A stretch of 64,000 nt of DNA from assembly GCA_021819205.1 (NCBI GenBank), contig JAKARV010000001.1:1-64000 (forward strand), in the 5' to 3' direction. Source of the stretch: Actinomycetes bacterium (GTDB lineage Bacteria; Actinomycetota; Acidimicrobiia; Acidimicrobiales; Acidimicrobiaceae). Under the pieces are notes generated by a model, which was not told the origin of the DNA, did no database searches, and was given only the letters and a program-made list of their open reading frames with translations. Below are positions 1 through 5,948 of this stretch, in pieces. The translations under genes and the position numbers were made by a program. Position 1 is the first letter of the stretch, and each line of letters opens with the position of its first letter.

Positions 1-994
1 TCCGATCTAGTGGATCGTTGTAACGCTCGAAGTAATTCGCGCCGGGATCTTGATGGAACGTTTTGTTCGTCAAGAGGTGCCACGAGATCCCAAGGATGGA
101 GTGCGCTGTCGCAACGGTCGCGATGCTTGGCCCTCGGCTCCTCGAGATACGCCTGTAGTGCCCCCAAGGTAGGTACCCCTCGTTCTGGCGGCTGCCTCGG
201 AGCGAACCTCTTCAACCCGGGGGACGCGGCACACCTTTTCAAGACCGGTGTCAGCCATCCAAGCATCAATTCCGGCGTTGAGTTCAGCTATGGCGCGGTC
301 CAAGAAGTCGACGTGTGCAATGATGGCTCGACAGACGTTGCCGTGATGAGCATCGAAATGTCCATTCAACGCCTCTTCCAGCCCCCCGATCTTGGTCCGG
401 AGTCGTTGCCGGGCCATCCCGGCCAGTATGACGGGGTCGCGCTCGCCGCTGATCATGGCTTCGATCATGTCACGGGATGACTTGGACCAGACCGTCGAGG
501 CCACCGAGGTGAGTTTGATGCCGGCGTCTTGGAGTACCTTCTCCAATCGCTGCAGTGCCCGGGCCCGGGCGTCAATTTGAGTCTTTCGGTAGCGGGTGAG
601 TTCTCGCAGGGCCCGAATTGGCGGGGGTGGCACAAAGGAGGGGCGCACCATGCCGTGGGCGGCGACGTCGGCGAGCCACTGCGCCTCGGCGAGATCGGTC
701 TTTCGACCCGGAACGTTCTTCACATGGGCCGCGTTGCACAGCCACAGGTTGGTGAAGCGCCCCTCGAGGGCGTAGTAGACACTACTTCTAGTAGATGCCG
801 GTCGCCTCCATCACCACTGTCTGTACGTCGAAAGCCTCCGAGTACTGACGGAGTTCGTCCAATCCGCTCGTCGTTGTCGGAAGGATCCTCCTCTTCGTGT
901 CGTAAGAGCGGGAATCGGCACCAGGATCGATGCACGCAACGACCGTATCGCGATGCACATCGAGACCAGCAACTCCCACAAGTATTCGTTTCAC
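1..994 (-). pseudogene. Decayed IS110-family transposase (partial at left edge)
   Basis: On the minus strand a GTG at 994, preceded by AGGAGG, opens a protein beginning VKRILVGVAGLDVHRDTVVA, the RuvC-like N-terminus of IS110 (DEDD) transposases, and reaches MEATGIY near 790, where the frame closes. It resumes in another frame with VYYALEGRFTNLW, then NVPGRKTDLAEAQWLADVA, and continues to about 230. About 60 residues expected for the family (helix-hairpin-helix/catalytic Ser part) appear deleted. The tail continues in yet other frames: ARTRGTYLG, then ATAHSILGISWHLLT and GANYFERYNDP, which runs into the window edge. Several frameshifts plus a deletion mean the copy cannot make transposase. Family assignment is secure; the element's ends cannot be placed because the 3' side is outside the window. 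Confidence 0.85.
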
Positions 995-1224
995 CTCGCA
1001 CCTCCTCTGCCAAGGGGCCGCGATGTGGAACCAGAAATCAAGCGGAAGCTGGGATTCGTGCTCTGGGCGACAATAATCAGTTCCCAAGAATCCCGCACCA
1101 AACTTTTCACGTACTCATAGGTACAAGCGGGGTCGGTGACCGAGCATCGCGGCCAGCTCCAGCATTTCATTCATCGTGAGTGGCTGTCAGCAGCCACGGC
1201 AACTTTTCGCATGAAGGGTCTAGC

Positions 1225-2463
1225 TTAGGCGCAATGCACGCAACTGAGCTTGATCGACGAGTCCATGTTCCCGGCTAGATCGAGCAGCTTGGACGCGCTC
1301 TGGCTCCAAGTGAAGAGGTCGGCGGTCGCAGCCGCCTGCTGACCCATCCTCCTGAGAAGGACCGGGCTCCGAAGCAATTTTTCAATGGCTGCCGCAAAGC
1401 CGCCGGCAGTTCGCTCGCCAACCAGCAGGCCGGTGGTTCCGTCATGGACGACCGAGCGTAACCCGCCTACATCACTCGCAACGACCGGAGTGCCGCAGGC
1501 GCTTGCTTCCAGCGCTACCAGTCCGAAGGACTCGCTCTCGGAGGGGACTATCGCGATGTCTGCAGCCCGGTAGTAGGTGGAGAGCAACTCATGGGGTTGG
1601 GGTGGAACTAGGTGAACCTGATCCTCGATACCGTACCGGGATATGAGGTCGTTGATGCGTGACACTTCGGTCTGGCCATCTTCGCCCGATGGACCGCCAA
1701 CGATGACGATGTGCGCCTGGAGGCCGCGGTCTACTTTCGCGACTGCCTCAACGGCGAGAGATGTTCCCTTGAGGCTCTGGATTCTCCCGGCGTAGATGAT
1801 CAGCGGGAAAGCGCCCGGAAGTCCGATCGCCGCGCGAGCTATCTGCTTCTCGCCAGGTGCAAAAAAGGCCCGGTCAATGCCGGGAGGCACCTCGACGAGT
1901 TGGGCCGTGTCGGCTCCGTAATATTTGGTAAGCCAGCCAGCTTCATCGGGACCGGAGACCAGCACGGCATCGGAGCAGCCGAGGATTCGCTGCTCCTGGT
2001 GGATCCGGAGCGCCGAGAGGTCGCCGTGAGATCTTCCAAAGGCTTGCTTGGCACGCTCAAGCGTGTGAAACGTTGTCACCATCGGGATGCCAAAGTCGTG
2101 CTTCAAGGTGTGGGCGGCCATCCCGGAGAGCCAGTAGTTGGCGTGTACGGCGTCGTAGGCGTAGGAAGCGCCCGCTACCTTCTCAACGAGCTGGTCGGCG
2201 AAGTCCTTGATGCCGGCGTAGCTTTCAGCGGGGGAGATCCTTCCGTACCCCGCTGCCGGGATCGAGTGGACGCGGAGTCCCGGCTCTACCATCCTGATCT
2301 CCGGCTCATCCGGGTCGATGCGCCGGGTGAAGATGTCGCACTCGGCGCCCTGCCGCGCAGCATGCGAGGCCATACTGCGTACGTAGACGTTCATCCCACC
2401 GTCGGACCCGGATCCGGGGACAGAGAGGGGGGAGGCGTGGTACGAAATTATTGCCAACCTCAA
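1225..2463 (-). CDS. mshA: D-inositol-3-phosphate glycosyltransferase, MshA-like
   Basis: A 412-residue GT4 glycosyltransferase. MshA transfers N-acetylglucosamine from UDP-GlcNAc to 1L-myo-inositol-1-phosphate, the first committed step of mycothiol synthesis in the cytosol. The N-terminus MRLAIISYHASPL, followed by GSGSDGGMNVYVR and DIFTRR, matches the MshA nucleotide/acceptor region, and the C-terminal half has the GT-B donor motif ESESFGLVALEASACGTPVV (the E-x7-E type). The start is a TTG at 2463 with GGAGG upstream. It lies downstream of, and on the same strand as, the RsiG-like gene with about 90 bp between. Other GT4 enzymes such as sucrose-phosphate synthase relatives look similar, but the N-terminal signature favours MshA. 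No other mycothiol genes are in the window. Confidence 0.82.
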   Translation of the reverse strand: MRLAIISYHASPLSVPGSGSDGGMNVYVRSMASHAARQGAECDIFTRRIDPDEPEIRMVEPGLRVHSIPAAGYGRISPAESYAGIKDFADQLVEKVAGASYAYDAVHANYWLSGMAAHTLKHDFGIPMVTTFHTLERAKQAFGRSHGDLSALRIHQEQRILGCSDAVLVSGPDEAGWLTKYYGADTAQLVEVPPGIDRAFFAPGEKQIARAAIGLPGAFPLIIYAGRIQSLKGTSLAVEAVAKVDRGLQAHIVIVGGPSGEDGQTEVSRINDLISRYGIEDQVHLVPPQPHELLSTYYRAADIAIVPSESESFGLVALEASACGTPVVASDVGGLRSVVHDGTTGLLVGERTAGGFAAAIEKLLRSPVLLRRMGQQAAATADLFTWSQSASKLLDLAGNMDSSIKLSCVHCA

Positions 2464-2552: not shown

Positions 2553-3047
2553 CTAGGCGCCGGCTGCGCCCTCCTTGTACCGGCGCACTAGCTCCGCTCC
2601 AAGTTTGTCCAGCCGTTCGTGGATCTGATGGCGGAGGCGGGAAATCCCGCGCTCCCCCTCCTCCAAGGACTGGCGGTAACTCGACAGTTGGGCGGTGTCG
2701 AGCAGGTCGAGGGAGTGGCTGCGATCCTGGCCGATTAGGTTGCGGAGGTACTCGTCGGCGACCTCCGCATCGTCATCGCTGAGATCTACGTCGACGAAGC
2801 GTGCCGCAATATCGGGGTGGTTTTGGTTCGGTGCCACGATCGCGGTAATGGCCTCCGGCGAAGCTGGTGTACGGTTGTCGACGATGTCGAGTCGCGTCTG
2901 CACCAGCCTGCGTGAGTAGGAGATCAGGTTTTCGAGCCGCCGACCCTGGTTCCGGTAATCGCGAAGATTGTCGACATCAAGCGCCGACATATCGGAGTCA
3001 TCAACTGCGTCGAGCCACTTACTGATCTCTATCTGCAGATCGCGCAT
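2553..3047 (-). CDS. RsiG-like anti-sigma protein with c-di-GMP-binding helices
   Basis: A 164-residue, highly charged, predicted helical protein. The RsiG anti-sigma factors of Streptomyces and relatives bind cyclic di-GMP through a helical motif E(X)3S(X)2R(X)3Q(X)3D, present in one or two copies. Here E39-S43-R46-Q50-D54 (within RRLENLISYSRRLVQTRLD) fits this spacing exactly. A second helix near the C-terminus has E132-S136-R139-H143-D147 (in ERGISRLRHQIHERLD), the same spacing with His for Gln. Between them is an acidic stretch VDVDLSDDDAEVADEYL. The ATG at 3047 overlaps the sodX stop (TGATG), so translation is probably coupled; a TTG at 3050 is an alternative. No WhiG-type sigma gene lies in the window, so the target is unknown. 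The motif is seen directly; anti-sigma function is inferred. Confidence 0.7.
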   Translation of the reverse strand: MRDLQIEISKWLDAVDDSDMSALDVDNLRDYRNQGRRLENLISYSRRLVQTRLDIVDNRTPASPEAITAIVAPNQNHPDIAARFVDVDLSDDDAEVADEYLRNLIGQDRSHSLDLLDTAQLSSYRQSLEEGERGISRLRHQIHERLDKLGAELVRRYKEGAAGA

Positions 3048-3463
3048 CAACCACCCCTAGGTTCCAGAACGCCACCTTTACTATATCGGTTCGAAATGCG
3101 GCCAGCGCGGGTGGGGGGAGAGTACCGGTAGCAGATCCGCCCAATAACGTGTCTGCGATCGACCCAGCCGAACACTCGGCTATCCGTCGATCTCCCGGTA
3201 TTGTCACCCAGAAGGTAGATGAGGTTTCCTTCTACGGCTGCTGCCCGCTTGACTAGCTTCCGCGTGGGATCTCTGGGATCGTAGGCCACTACGGCATCTC
3301 CCGGGCGGATTCGGGATGTAAGCAGGACGAGCAGCCGGTCTCCGGCGGAGATTGCCGGCTCCATCGAGGAGCCCTCGACCTTGATGCGGGAGAGTTTGCT
3401 CGCAGTTGCAAGCGTTGCCGAACTAATCGAGGCGATGAGCCAAATCTTCAAGCACCCTCGCAT
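3047..3463 (-). CDS. sodX: Nickel-type superoxide dismutase maturation protease (S26 family)
   Basis: A small signal-peptidase-like (S26) serine protease of 138 residues. An N-terminal hydrophobic segment (residues 5-21) is followed by the Ser box VEGSSMEP (catalytic Ser33), GDRLLV, and the Lys box KLVKRAAA (Lys72). The C-terminal LLGDN..STDSRVFGWV..HVIGRI is the S26 signature as it appears in SodX. SodX removes the short propeptide of NiSOD so that the His1 amine can bind nickel. The adjacent divergent sodN supports this strongly. The frame is open further upstream to 3613, into sodN; I prefer ATG 3463 because the open extension overlaps the sodN start and a TATAGT box sits about 10 nt before this ATG, suggesting an almost leaderless transcript. 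Confidence 0.8.
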   Translation of the reverse strand: MRGCLKIWLIASISSATLATASKLSRIKVEGSSMEPAISAGDRLLVLLTSRIRPGDAVVAYDPRDPTRKLVKRAAAVEGNLIYLLGDNTGRSTDSRVFGWVDRRHVIGRICYRYSPPTRAGRISNRYSKGGVLEPRGG

Positions 3464-3558
3464 AGACTCCAACACTATACGGATTAGGACCGGATACATC
3501 GCAAGCATCGTGGCTGCTACCAGGTGCTTCGGTGCCGAGAGGAAGGATAAAGAGGACA

Positions 3559-3969
3559 GTGATAGCACAGATAATTCGGTTAATTGATCGGGTAGCCAAG
3601 CCCGGGGTCGCATCGGCGCATTGCGATCTCCCGTGCGGCGTTTACGATCCGGCTCAGGCTCGGGTCGAGGCTGAGTCGGTGAAGGCGATCATGGAGAAGT
3701 ACAATGCTTCGGACGACCAGTATTTCCGGGACCGGGCGGTAATTATCAAAGAACAGCGGGCAGCTGAAGTAAACCATCATCTCGACATTCTCTGGTACCA
3801 GTACTTCCAGCCGGCTCACCTTGAGAAGTACCCGCAGCTGCACGAGCTGTTCTGGTCTTCGAAGAAGCTGACCTCCCAGGCTAAGCGGAGCAACGACGTC
3901 GCCATCGCGGATCAGCTGCTCTCCTCGATTAACCAGATTGCCGAGATCTTCTGGGAGACCAAGAAGTAG
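3559..3969 (+). CDS. sodN: Nickel superoxide dismutase (NiSOD) precursor
   Basis: The precursor carries the nickel hook HCDLPCGVYDP, in which the mature His1, Cys2 and Cys6 bind Ni. Starting at GTG 3559 (AGAGG just upstream) gives a 136-residue precursor: a 20-residue propeptide ending GVASA, then the hook at His21-Cys22-Cys26, and a mature chain of 116 residues, close to the Streptomyces enzyme. The rest (RVEAESVKAIMEKY, QYFRDRAVIIKEQRA, HHLDILWYQYF) is the four-helix bundle. An in-frame GTG at 3532 is possible but has a poorer ribosome site. The enzyme disproportionates superoxide in the cytosol and assembles as a hexamer. Divergent from sodX, with about 95 bp between chosen starts. NiSOD expression commonly responds to nickel through a Nur-type repressor; I see no clear Nur box. 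Confidence 0.93.
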   Translation: MIAQIIRLIDRVAKPGVASAHCDLPCGVYDPAQARVEAESVKAIMEKYNASDDQYFRDRAVIIKEQRAAEVNHHLDILWYQYFQPAHLEKYPQLHELFWSSKKLTSQAKRSNDVAIADQLLSSINQIAEIFWETKK

Positions 3970-4243: not shown

Positions 4244-4489
4244 ATGTTGCCTGGCAGGATTTTCGTGGAGATCGACGCAGAGTTGGTCGAGCGCGCTAGC
4301 AAGGCTGGAGCGCCTACCGGACGTGGCGCCGACGCTGTAGCGGAAGACGCCTTGCGGGCGTTTCTCGGAGCCGAGGTTGTCGACCTAGTGAGGGCCCGCA
4401 ACCAAGGCGTCGATCCGGAGGAGATCGCTGCGCTTGGTCTATCCGAGCTGAAGGCCTGGCGAGCTGAGCAGCAGCACACCGCACTGTAG
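4244..4489 (+). CDS. Putative antitoxin paired with PIN-domain toxin
   Basis: An 81-residue protein starting MLPGRIFVEIDAELVERAS. The N-terminus resembles a DNA-binding beta-strand/helix segment of small type II antitoxins and the C-terminal half is charged and helical (LVRARNQGVDPEEIAALGLSELKAWRAEQQ), as expected for the toxin-neutralising arm. The only strong argument for function is position: its stop at 4489 is 9 nt before a PIN-domain toxin frame (4498), the usual antitoxin-then-toxin order. The ATG at 4244 is chosen because the upstream extension of the frame reads into sequence with no protein character. No family name can be assigned with confidence. Confidence 0.55.
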   Translation: MLPGRIFVEIDAELVERASKAGAPTGRGADAVAEDALRAFLGAEVVDLVRARNQGVDPEEIAALGLSELKAWRAEQQHTAL

Positions 4490-4497
4490 CCCACTCG

Positions 4498-4929
4498 GTG
4501 GTCTTGCTTGTCATTGACCCTAACGTCTTTGTCGCAGGGTTAATCGCTCGGGGGGCTCCGGCCGAAGTTGTCGACCTGGTGCGCTACGGCTAAGTTCGAG
4601 CCGTCTCGTGTCCCCACCTGCTGGCGGAACTGGAGGGTGTGGTGCGCCGCCCCAGTTTTGGCCGCTATGTCGACACTGGCGAGGTCGGTTCCTACCTCGA
4701 ATTGCTTCGTAGTGTCACCTTCCATCAACCCGATCCGATGCGTATTGACGACATCGAGTGTCGTGATCCGGCTGATGCCTACCTGATTGCACTTGCTCGT
4801 CAAACAGGAGCAGACGCTGTGGTCTCAGGCGACCGCGATCTTACCGAGCTTGATGCACTCCAGCCACCCGTGCTGACTCCAGCTGGCGCACTCGACCGTT
4901 GGGATTCCGTGCCTCGACAACCCCTCTAG
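4498..4929 (+). pseudogene. PIN-domain toxin (VapC-like) interrupted by in-frame stop
   Basis: Read from GTG 4498, the frame gives VVLLVIDPNVFVAGLIARGA, the first PIN-domain strand with its acidic metal ligand. It then meets TAA at 4591-4593 in the same frame and continues without shift as VRAVSCPHLLAELEGVVRR, RDPADAYLIALARQTGADAV and VSGDRDL, the remaining acidic residues of the ribonuclease site. It ends at 4929. This is the COG1569-type putative PIN toxin family, about 143 residues. One premature stop at codon 32 is the only visible lesion, so this is either a recent pseudogene, a sequencing error, or read-through. PIN toxins cleave RNA; with the stop, the downstream fragment lacks the first catalytic Asp. 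Confidence 0.75.
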
Positions 4930-5415: not shown

Positions 5416-5643
5416 ATGCGCAAGCGTATTTGTATGGCATCCCTGAGGACAACCTTTACACTGGACGAGGATTTGGCCGAGCGGGCTCGGCAGCTAGGTG
5501 TCAACGTTTCGGCTGCTGCCCGTCAGGGTGTTGCCGATGCGGTACGCGCTTCGCTTGAAAAGGCTGATCGAGATGCGTACCTCAAAGATCCCGAGCGCAC
5601 GGACCCCGCTTGGTCCGACGCTGAAGCATGGGGTAAACCATGA
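5416..5643 (+). CDS. CcdA-like type II antitoxin
   Basis: A 75-residue protein whose core SLRTTFTLDEDLAERARQLG is a ribbon-helix-helix DNA-binding segment, followed by VNVSAAARQGVADAVRASLE and the acidic, aromatic tail DPERTDPAWSDAEAWGKP typical of CcdA/MazE-type antitoxins that wrap around their toxin. Its stop overlaps the start of the MazF-like gene (ATGA at 5640), which is the classic coupled arrangement. The start could be ATG 5416 or ATG 5434; neither has a strong ribosome site. The protein is expected to repress its own promoter together with the toxin. Confidence 0.8.
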   Translation: MRKRICMASLRTTFTLDEDLAERARQLGVNVSAAARQGVADAVRASLEKADRDAYLKDPERTDPAWSDAEAWGKP

Positions 5644-5948
5644 GACGTGGCGAACTGTGGTTGGCTGAAGTTGGCGGCAAGAAGCGGCCGGTGTTGGTGC
5701 TCACCCGGTCCGGAGTGTTGAGCGTTCGAAGTTTCGTCACGATTGCCGAGGTCACTACATCCATTCGTGGTCTTAGCGTTGAAGTCGAACTTGACCATCG
5801 TGCAATCGGGCTAGATCGTCCCTCGGCAATCAACTGCGACGGCTTGCACACCATCGATCGAGCTTTACTCGTGGGTCCAGTTGGCGAGGTCGGCAGCGAA
5901 GTCATGCGGAGAGTCTGCCTTGCTGTCAGCTATGCCCTAGGCTGCTGA
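5640..5948 (+). CDS. MazF/PemK-type mRNA interferase toxin
   Basis: A 102-residue PemK/MazF-fold toxin. The start MRRGELWLAEVGGKKRPVLV is the family signature (RGE..W.....G.KRPV), followed by VRSFVTIAEVTTSIRGL and CDGLHTIDRALL, which fit the second and third conserved blocks (T/S for substrate contact and the N/D-G-L strand). MazF toxins cleave single-stranded mRNA at short sequence motifs and are held inactive by their antitoxin. ATG 5640 overlaps the antitoxin stop. The toxin looks intact. It is the last gene of the accessory patch. Confidence 0.85.
   Translation: MRRGELWLAEVGGKKRPVLVLTRSGVLSVRSFVTIAEVTTSIRGLSVEVELDHRAIGLDRPSAINCDGLHTIDRALLVGPVGEVGSEVMRRVCLAVSYALGC

Follow-up and report, generated by a model that had tools for sequence, protein, structure and literature searches.

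A twin-motif RsiG from a flagellated actinobacterium, its likely partner WhiG, and a predicted output in motility, chemotaxis and c-di-GMP turnover

We found that the gene at positions 2553..3047 (-) of the analysed window (the whole stretch of 64,000 nucleotides) encodes a 164-aa protein, starting with ATG, which by its sequence and predicted fold is an ordinary twin-motif RsiG, a newly found member of an already known family of c-di-GMP anti-sigma factors. Together with WhiG, it probably forms the known RsiG-WhiG switch, with a predicted output in flagellar motility, chemotaxis and c-di-GMP turnover, and not in spores or stress. Less firmly, though on balance in its favor, we propose that RsiG replaced FlgM in this flagellated family, so that WhiG would serve as the flagellar sigma factor and the flagellin, chemotaxis and c-di-GMP-turnover genes would be switched directly by c-di-GMP. 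In Streptomyces, RsiG-WhiG controls sporulation, and in Rubrobacter, type IV pili (by prediction and start-site mapping); WhiG itself descended from flagellar sigma factors.

The RsiG-type assignment, put forward in an earlier note based on the sequence of the window, is borne out by a Pfam match with PF22802 (RsiG-like) over two stretches of the protein (E = 9.2e-17, 60.9 bits vs a cut-off of 27) and by a phmmer search against PDB, where the top match was Streptomyces venezuelae RsiG (6pfj chain T, E = 6.8e-5). The genome encodes one RsiG. Both motif copies read by the earlier note are in place: c-di-GMP motif 1, ENLISYSRRLVQTRLD (2886..2933 (-), residues 39-54), is an exact E-X3-S-X2-R-X3-Q-X3-D, and motif 2, ERGISRLRHQIHERLD (2607..2654 (-), residues 132-147), has His143 at the Gln position. 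Alignment with RsiG proteins, a check proposed in that note, showed that the E, S and R residues of both motifs (E39, S43, R46, E132, S136, R139) are invariant among 49 relatives, while Q50, D54 and D147 are conserved in at least 90% of them. An AlphaFold2 model built with 49 sequences reached a mean pLDDT of 85.9, with two long helices (25-57 and 118-158) mostly at pLDDT > 90 and a poorly predicted linker; the antiparallel helix pair, whose absence had been named as the refuting outcome, is thus predicted. In a Foldseek search against PDB, the best three matches were all 6pfv RsiG (probability 1.00, TM 0.61-0.65, with modest E values of 0.005-0.011), and S. venezuelae RsiG is the sole convincing structural match of the predicted fold.

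The strict motif is broken by His143, which raises the question of a degenerate RsiG that has lost c-di-GMP binding through this residue. On the side of WhiG, too, the c-di-GMP contacts described for S. venezuelae (K57, G61, R62) are only partly retained, as R62 is kept, while K57 is replaced by R and G61 by S. Yet, His is common at that position in the clade: among the RsiG proteins encoded at 71 loci of relatives, most have His, and those of some genera Phe, where motif 2 calls for Gln. Moreover, known RsiGs often show a Gln-to-His exchange at this place in the motif, albeit in the first helix, and the exchange was judged compatible with guanine stacking (PMC8325347, 2021), and the remaining motif residues are all kept and strongly conserved. 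Since relatives usually have His there, we rejected His143 as a defect and regard a degenerate protein as very improbable. Twin-motif RsiG was also listed in 3/4 Acidimicrobiales (PMC8325347).

Some variation of motif 2 was observed elsewhere among the relatives. In four loci of genus g4 (L054, L060, L061 and L064), Phe replaces Gln/His, e.g., EAEISRWRKELFVAID, and the sequences suggest that its ring may stand in for Gln in guanine stacking. Two order-level relatives, L146 (G048) and L152 (G055), encode WhiG, and in their RsiG proteins neither motif copy fits the pattern; sodX is located 1.2-1.8 kb off, rather than adjacent. These two proteins are possible candidates for c-di-GMP-independent RsiGs.

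As for the partner, the source genome (2.13 Mb in 64 contigs, 92.6% complete) encodes three sigma-70 factors with region 3, one of which is WhiG (G000:C4:7467-8246), scoring 357.5 bits with the NCBIfam WhiG equivalog NF004935 (cut-off 343); in PDB, it matches WhiG 6pfj_A at 1.8e-92. The gene lies between xerC and rpsB, on another contig than rsiG, and the xerC-whiG-rpsB arrangement was found in most family members examined. When WhiG was counted as present only if its match exceeded those of the FliA-like group by a wide margin, 63 of 98 relatives possessed both RsiG and WhiG, 25 neither, nine RsiG only and one WhiG only (Fisher P 8.8e-15, a value without correction for relatedness). In the single WhiG-only genome, a contig ends within mshA, just where rsiG would sit and be missed, and six of the nine RsiG-only genomes are < 90% complete. 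The presence of WhiG in the genome and its co-occurrence with RsiG point to WhiG as the likely partner and remove the need to invoke another sigma factor. This contradicts the earlier suggestion, made with no WhiG in view, of a link to a different sigma factor. The nine relatives with RsiG but without detected WhiG could still be cited for inhibition of a sigma factor other than WhiG; with WhiG encoded in the same genome and the two proteins lost jointly, we rejected that idea and give it hardly any probability.

In the window, rsiG is located downstream of sodX, which encodes the Ni-SOD maturation protease (3047..3613 (-); TIGR02754, 66.2 bits, cut-off 63.25; the true start possibly inside the ORF), and upstream of a gene for an mshA-like GT4 glycosyltransferase (1225..2463 (-)). 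Divergent to sodX is sodN, the Ni superoxide dismutase gene (3532..3969 (+); TIGR02753, 154.5 bits, and PF09055, 2.2e-44), whose start is uncertain and given here as in the ORF listed. The overlap of rsiG with sodX reported earlier is real: in TGATG (3045-3049), the stop codon of sodX (TGA) and the ATG of rsiG have one base in common. SodX and SodN score above their curated cut-offs. The downstream gene had been called mshA, a name that holds in part, as the TIGR03449 MshA model is its best match but the score of 358.6 bits stays under the cut-off of 462.5.

The order sodN (divergent)-sodX-rsiG-mshA recurs among relatives. An MshA-like gene is positioned within 1.5 kb downstream of rsiG in 58/67 loci, SodX within 1 kb upstream in 34/63 and SodN divergently in 31/63; we found no report of the sodX-rsiG-mshA block in the open-access literature. 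Such conservation, together with the TGATG overlap found in both the window and the sister genome, is what would be expected of a redox operon in which RsiG ties c-di-GMP to oxidative-stress defence. The tight coupling is not general, however, as a start codon is found no more than 15 bases from the end of sodX in only 17/42 loci, and the sodN/sodX region contains no WhiG-type box for sodX or rsiG. In five genomes without RsiG and also without WhiG, sodX still adjoins mshA, with rsiG cleanly absent between them and sodN divergent in four of the five. Judging by gene content, rsiG therefore goes with WhiG and not with the redox genes. Of the oxidative-stress context stressed in the earlier note, the coupling to sodX and the conserved block stand, but the redox genes remain neighbours in genomes that lack rsiG, which weakens a redox operon as the function and makes it, in our opinion, improbable. 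The redox link is mostly positional, a matter of conserved gene order, and a shared transcript of rsiG with the redox genes is conceivable.

Several other features were noted in and around such blocks. Genome G014 carries two sodX-rsiG-mshA copies (L055 and L056) on different contigs of one bin, reflecting either duplication or mixed strains. A broken IS110-type transposase (70-723 (-) and 788-1087 (-); PF01548 partial, 1.5e-10) occupies the left end of the window and adjoins the mshA-like gene. Positions 4244-4929 (+) hold an apparently degenerate toxin-antitoxin pair, composed of a short antitoxin-like ORF and a PIN-domain remnant, the upstream part of which is ended by an in-frame TAA and the PIN match of which is slightly under the cut-off. 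A PemK/MazF-like toxin gene follows at 5640-5948 (+) (PF02452, 1.3e-12).

The predicted output was approached through the flagellar and c-di-GMP gene inventory. Contig C37 contains a flagellar cluster with genes for flagellin, FliD, FliS, FlgB, FlgC, FliF to FliI, FlgD and FlgE (flagellin and FliD were checked by Pfam, the other names come from reading the sequences), in which a gene encoding a GAF-EAL protein separates the flagellin-FliD-FliS genes from the flgB genes. The genome also encodes 14 GGDEF domains. No sigma-28-type factor other than WhiG was found, and a search for FlgM (PF04316) gave no match, while the same search found FlgM in 3/14 control genomes; at 92.6% completeness, the assembly may have missed a FliA or FlgM gene. 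In genus g6 of the same family, flagellin is encoded in several genomes, and RsiG and WhiG are absent in nearly all; among the flagellin genomes of this genus without RsiG/WhiG, G012 and G027 possess a different FliA-like sigma factor near the flagellin genes.

A WhiG-type promoter site, TCAAGCTTTCATTGATCGTTGCCGATAA, is located 83 bases before the start of the GAF-EAL gene in the flagellar cluster, and it is the only site that the strict flagellar consensus yielded in the C37 stretches. Such sites also precede genes encoding a GGDEF protein, a CheY-like protein, an MCP and a SpoIID-like protein; the GGDEF, CheY-like and SpoIID-like sites are also present upstream of the orthologous genes of the sister genome G001, and G007 shares the CheY-like one. 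With one mismatch allowed, the promoter pattern occurs 17 times in the source genome vs six for the reversed pattern, and 16 times vs one in G001, while the excess in genus g5 is small. Two exact matches were discarded, C1:15473, situated within an open frame and pointing towards no clear gene, and C15:3470, which lies inside an ORF. In turn, a box of the form TMAAG-N17-CGA was found upstream of flagellin in 17/30 genomes vs 0.23 expected from dinucleotide shuffles, a ratio that overstates independence, since the box was relaxed and refined by comparing relatives after inspection of the same sequences and the genomes are related. These boxes are mostly positioned 88-126 bases before the start; one of the 17 belongs to a genome without WhiG (G037, at -206). 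The flagellin box of the source genome itself deviates in its -10 element, with CCCGATGC for GCCGATAA.

The same data leave some room for a usual RsiG-WhiG pair with an output without flagella, restricted to c-di-GMP enzymes, type IV pili or envelope genes, in which case the flagellin box would serve another sigma factor or be unused. It is indeed the GGDEF, EAL, SpoIID-like and epimerase genes, and not flagellin, that have the strongest consensus sites, and many relatives with RsiG and WhiG lack flagellin, so flagella cannot be the output everywhere. There is also a precedent in Rubrobacter, where the RsiG-WhiG switch was placed over DGC/PDE genes and pili (PMC8325347). What speaks against this explanation is the recurrence of the flagellin boxes well above expectation, the lack of any other FliA-type sigma factor among those found in the genome and the sites at the CheY-like and MCP genes. 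We consider the non-flagellar output possible but rather unlikely, and retain flagellar motility, chemotaxis and c-di-GMP turnover as the predicted output of the switch.

Based on the fold and the motifs, the two antiparallel RsiG helices, with one c-di-GMP motif each, would hold a c-di-GMP dimer, and RsiG armed in this way would bind and silence WhiG, if the WhiG binding and the direction of control are as in the known switch. At high c-di-GMP, the flagellin, chemotaxis and c-di-GMP-turnover genes would consequently be off; once c-di-GMP falls, WhiG would be freed and these genes, the regulon proposed from promoter comparison, would be transcribed. A WhiG-driven EAL phosphodiesterase might lower c-di-GMP further, a possible positive feedback. 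Since no sigma-28-type factor besides WhiG was found in this flagellated host, the RsiG-WhiG switch probably does here what FliA and FlgM do elsewhere.

Compared with known systems, the protein most resembles S. venezuelae RsiG (6pfj, 6pfv), its best match in both sequence and structure, with which it shares the length, the two motifs, the predicted antiparallel helix pair and a WhiG encoded in the genome. It differs from it by His in place of Gln in motif 2, by the sodX/mshA linkage and by the flagellated host, with motility rather than sporulation as the predicted output. Rubrobacter radiotolerans RsiG (PDB 7lq2 to 7lq4), a single-motif homodimer set over type IV pili and DGC/PDE genes, has in common with it the c-di-GMP motif and the c-di-GMP enzymes among the predicted WhiG targets; here, in contrast, the two motifs reside in one chain and the predicted targets are flagellar and chemotaxis genes. 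The FlgM-FliA pair is alike in the proposed role, i.e., restraining the sigma factor for late flagellar genes, but RsiG is unrelated to FlgM, for which no match was found here, and would respond to c-di-GMP. In the open-access literature, we found no paper on a flagellar output of RsiG. If true, such an output would connect c-di-GMP directly, at the level of transcription, with swimming in actinobacteria, and it would fit the descent of WhiG from flagellar sigma factors.
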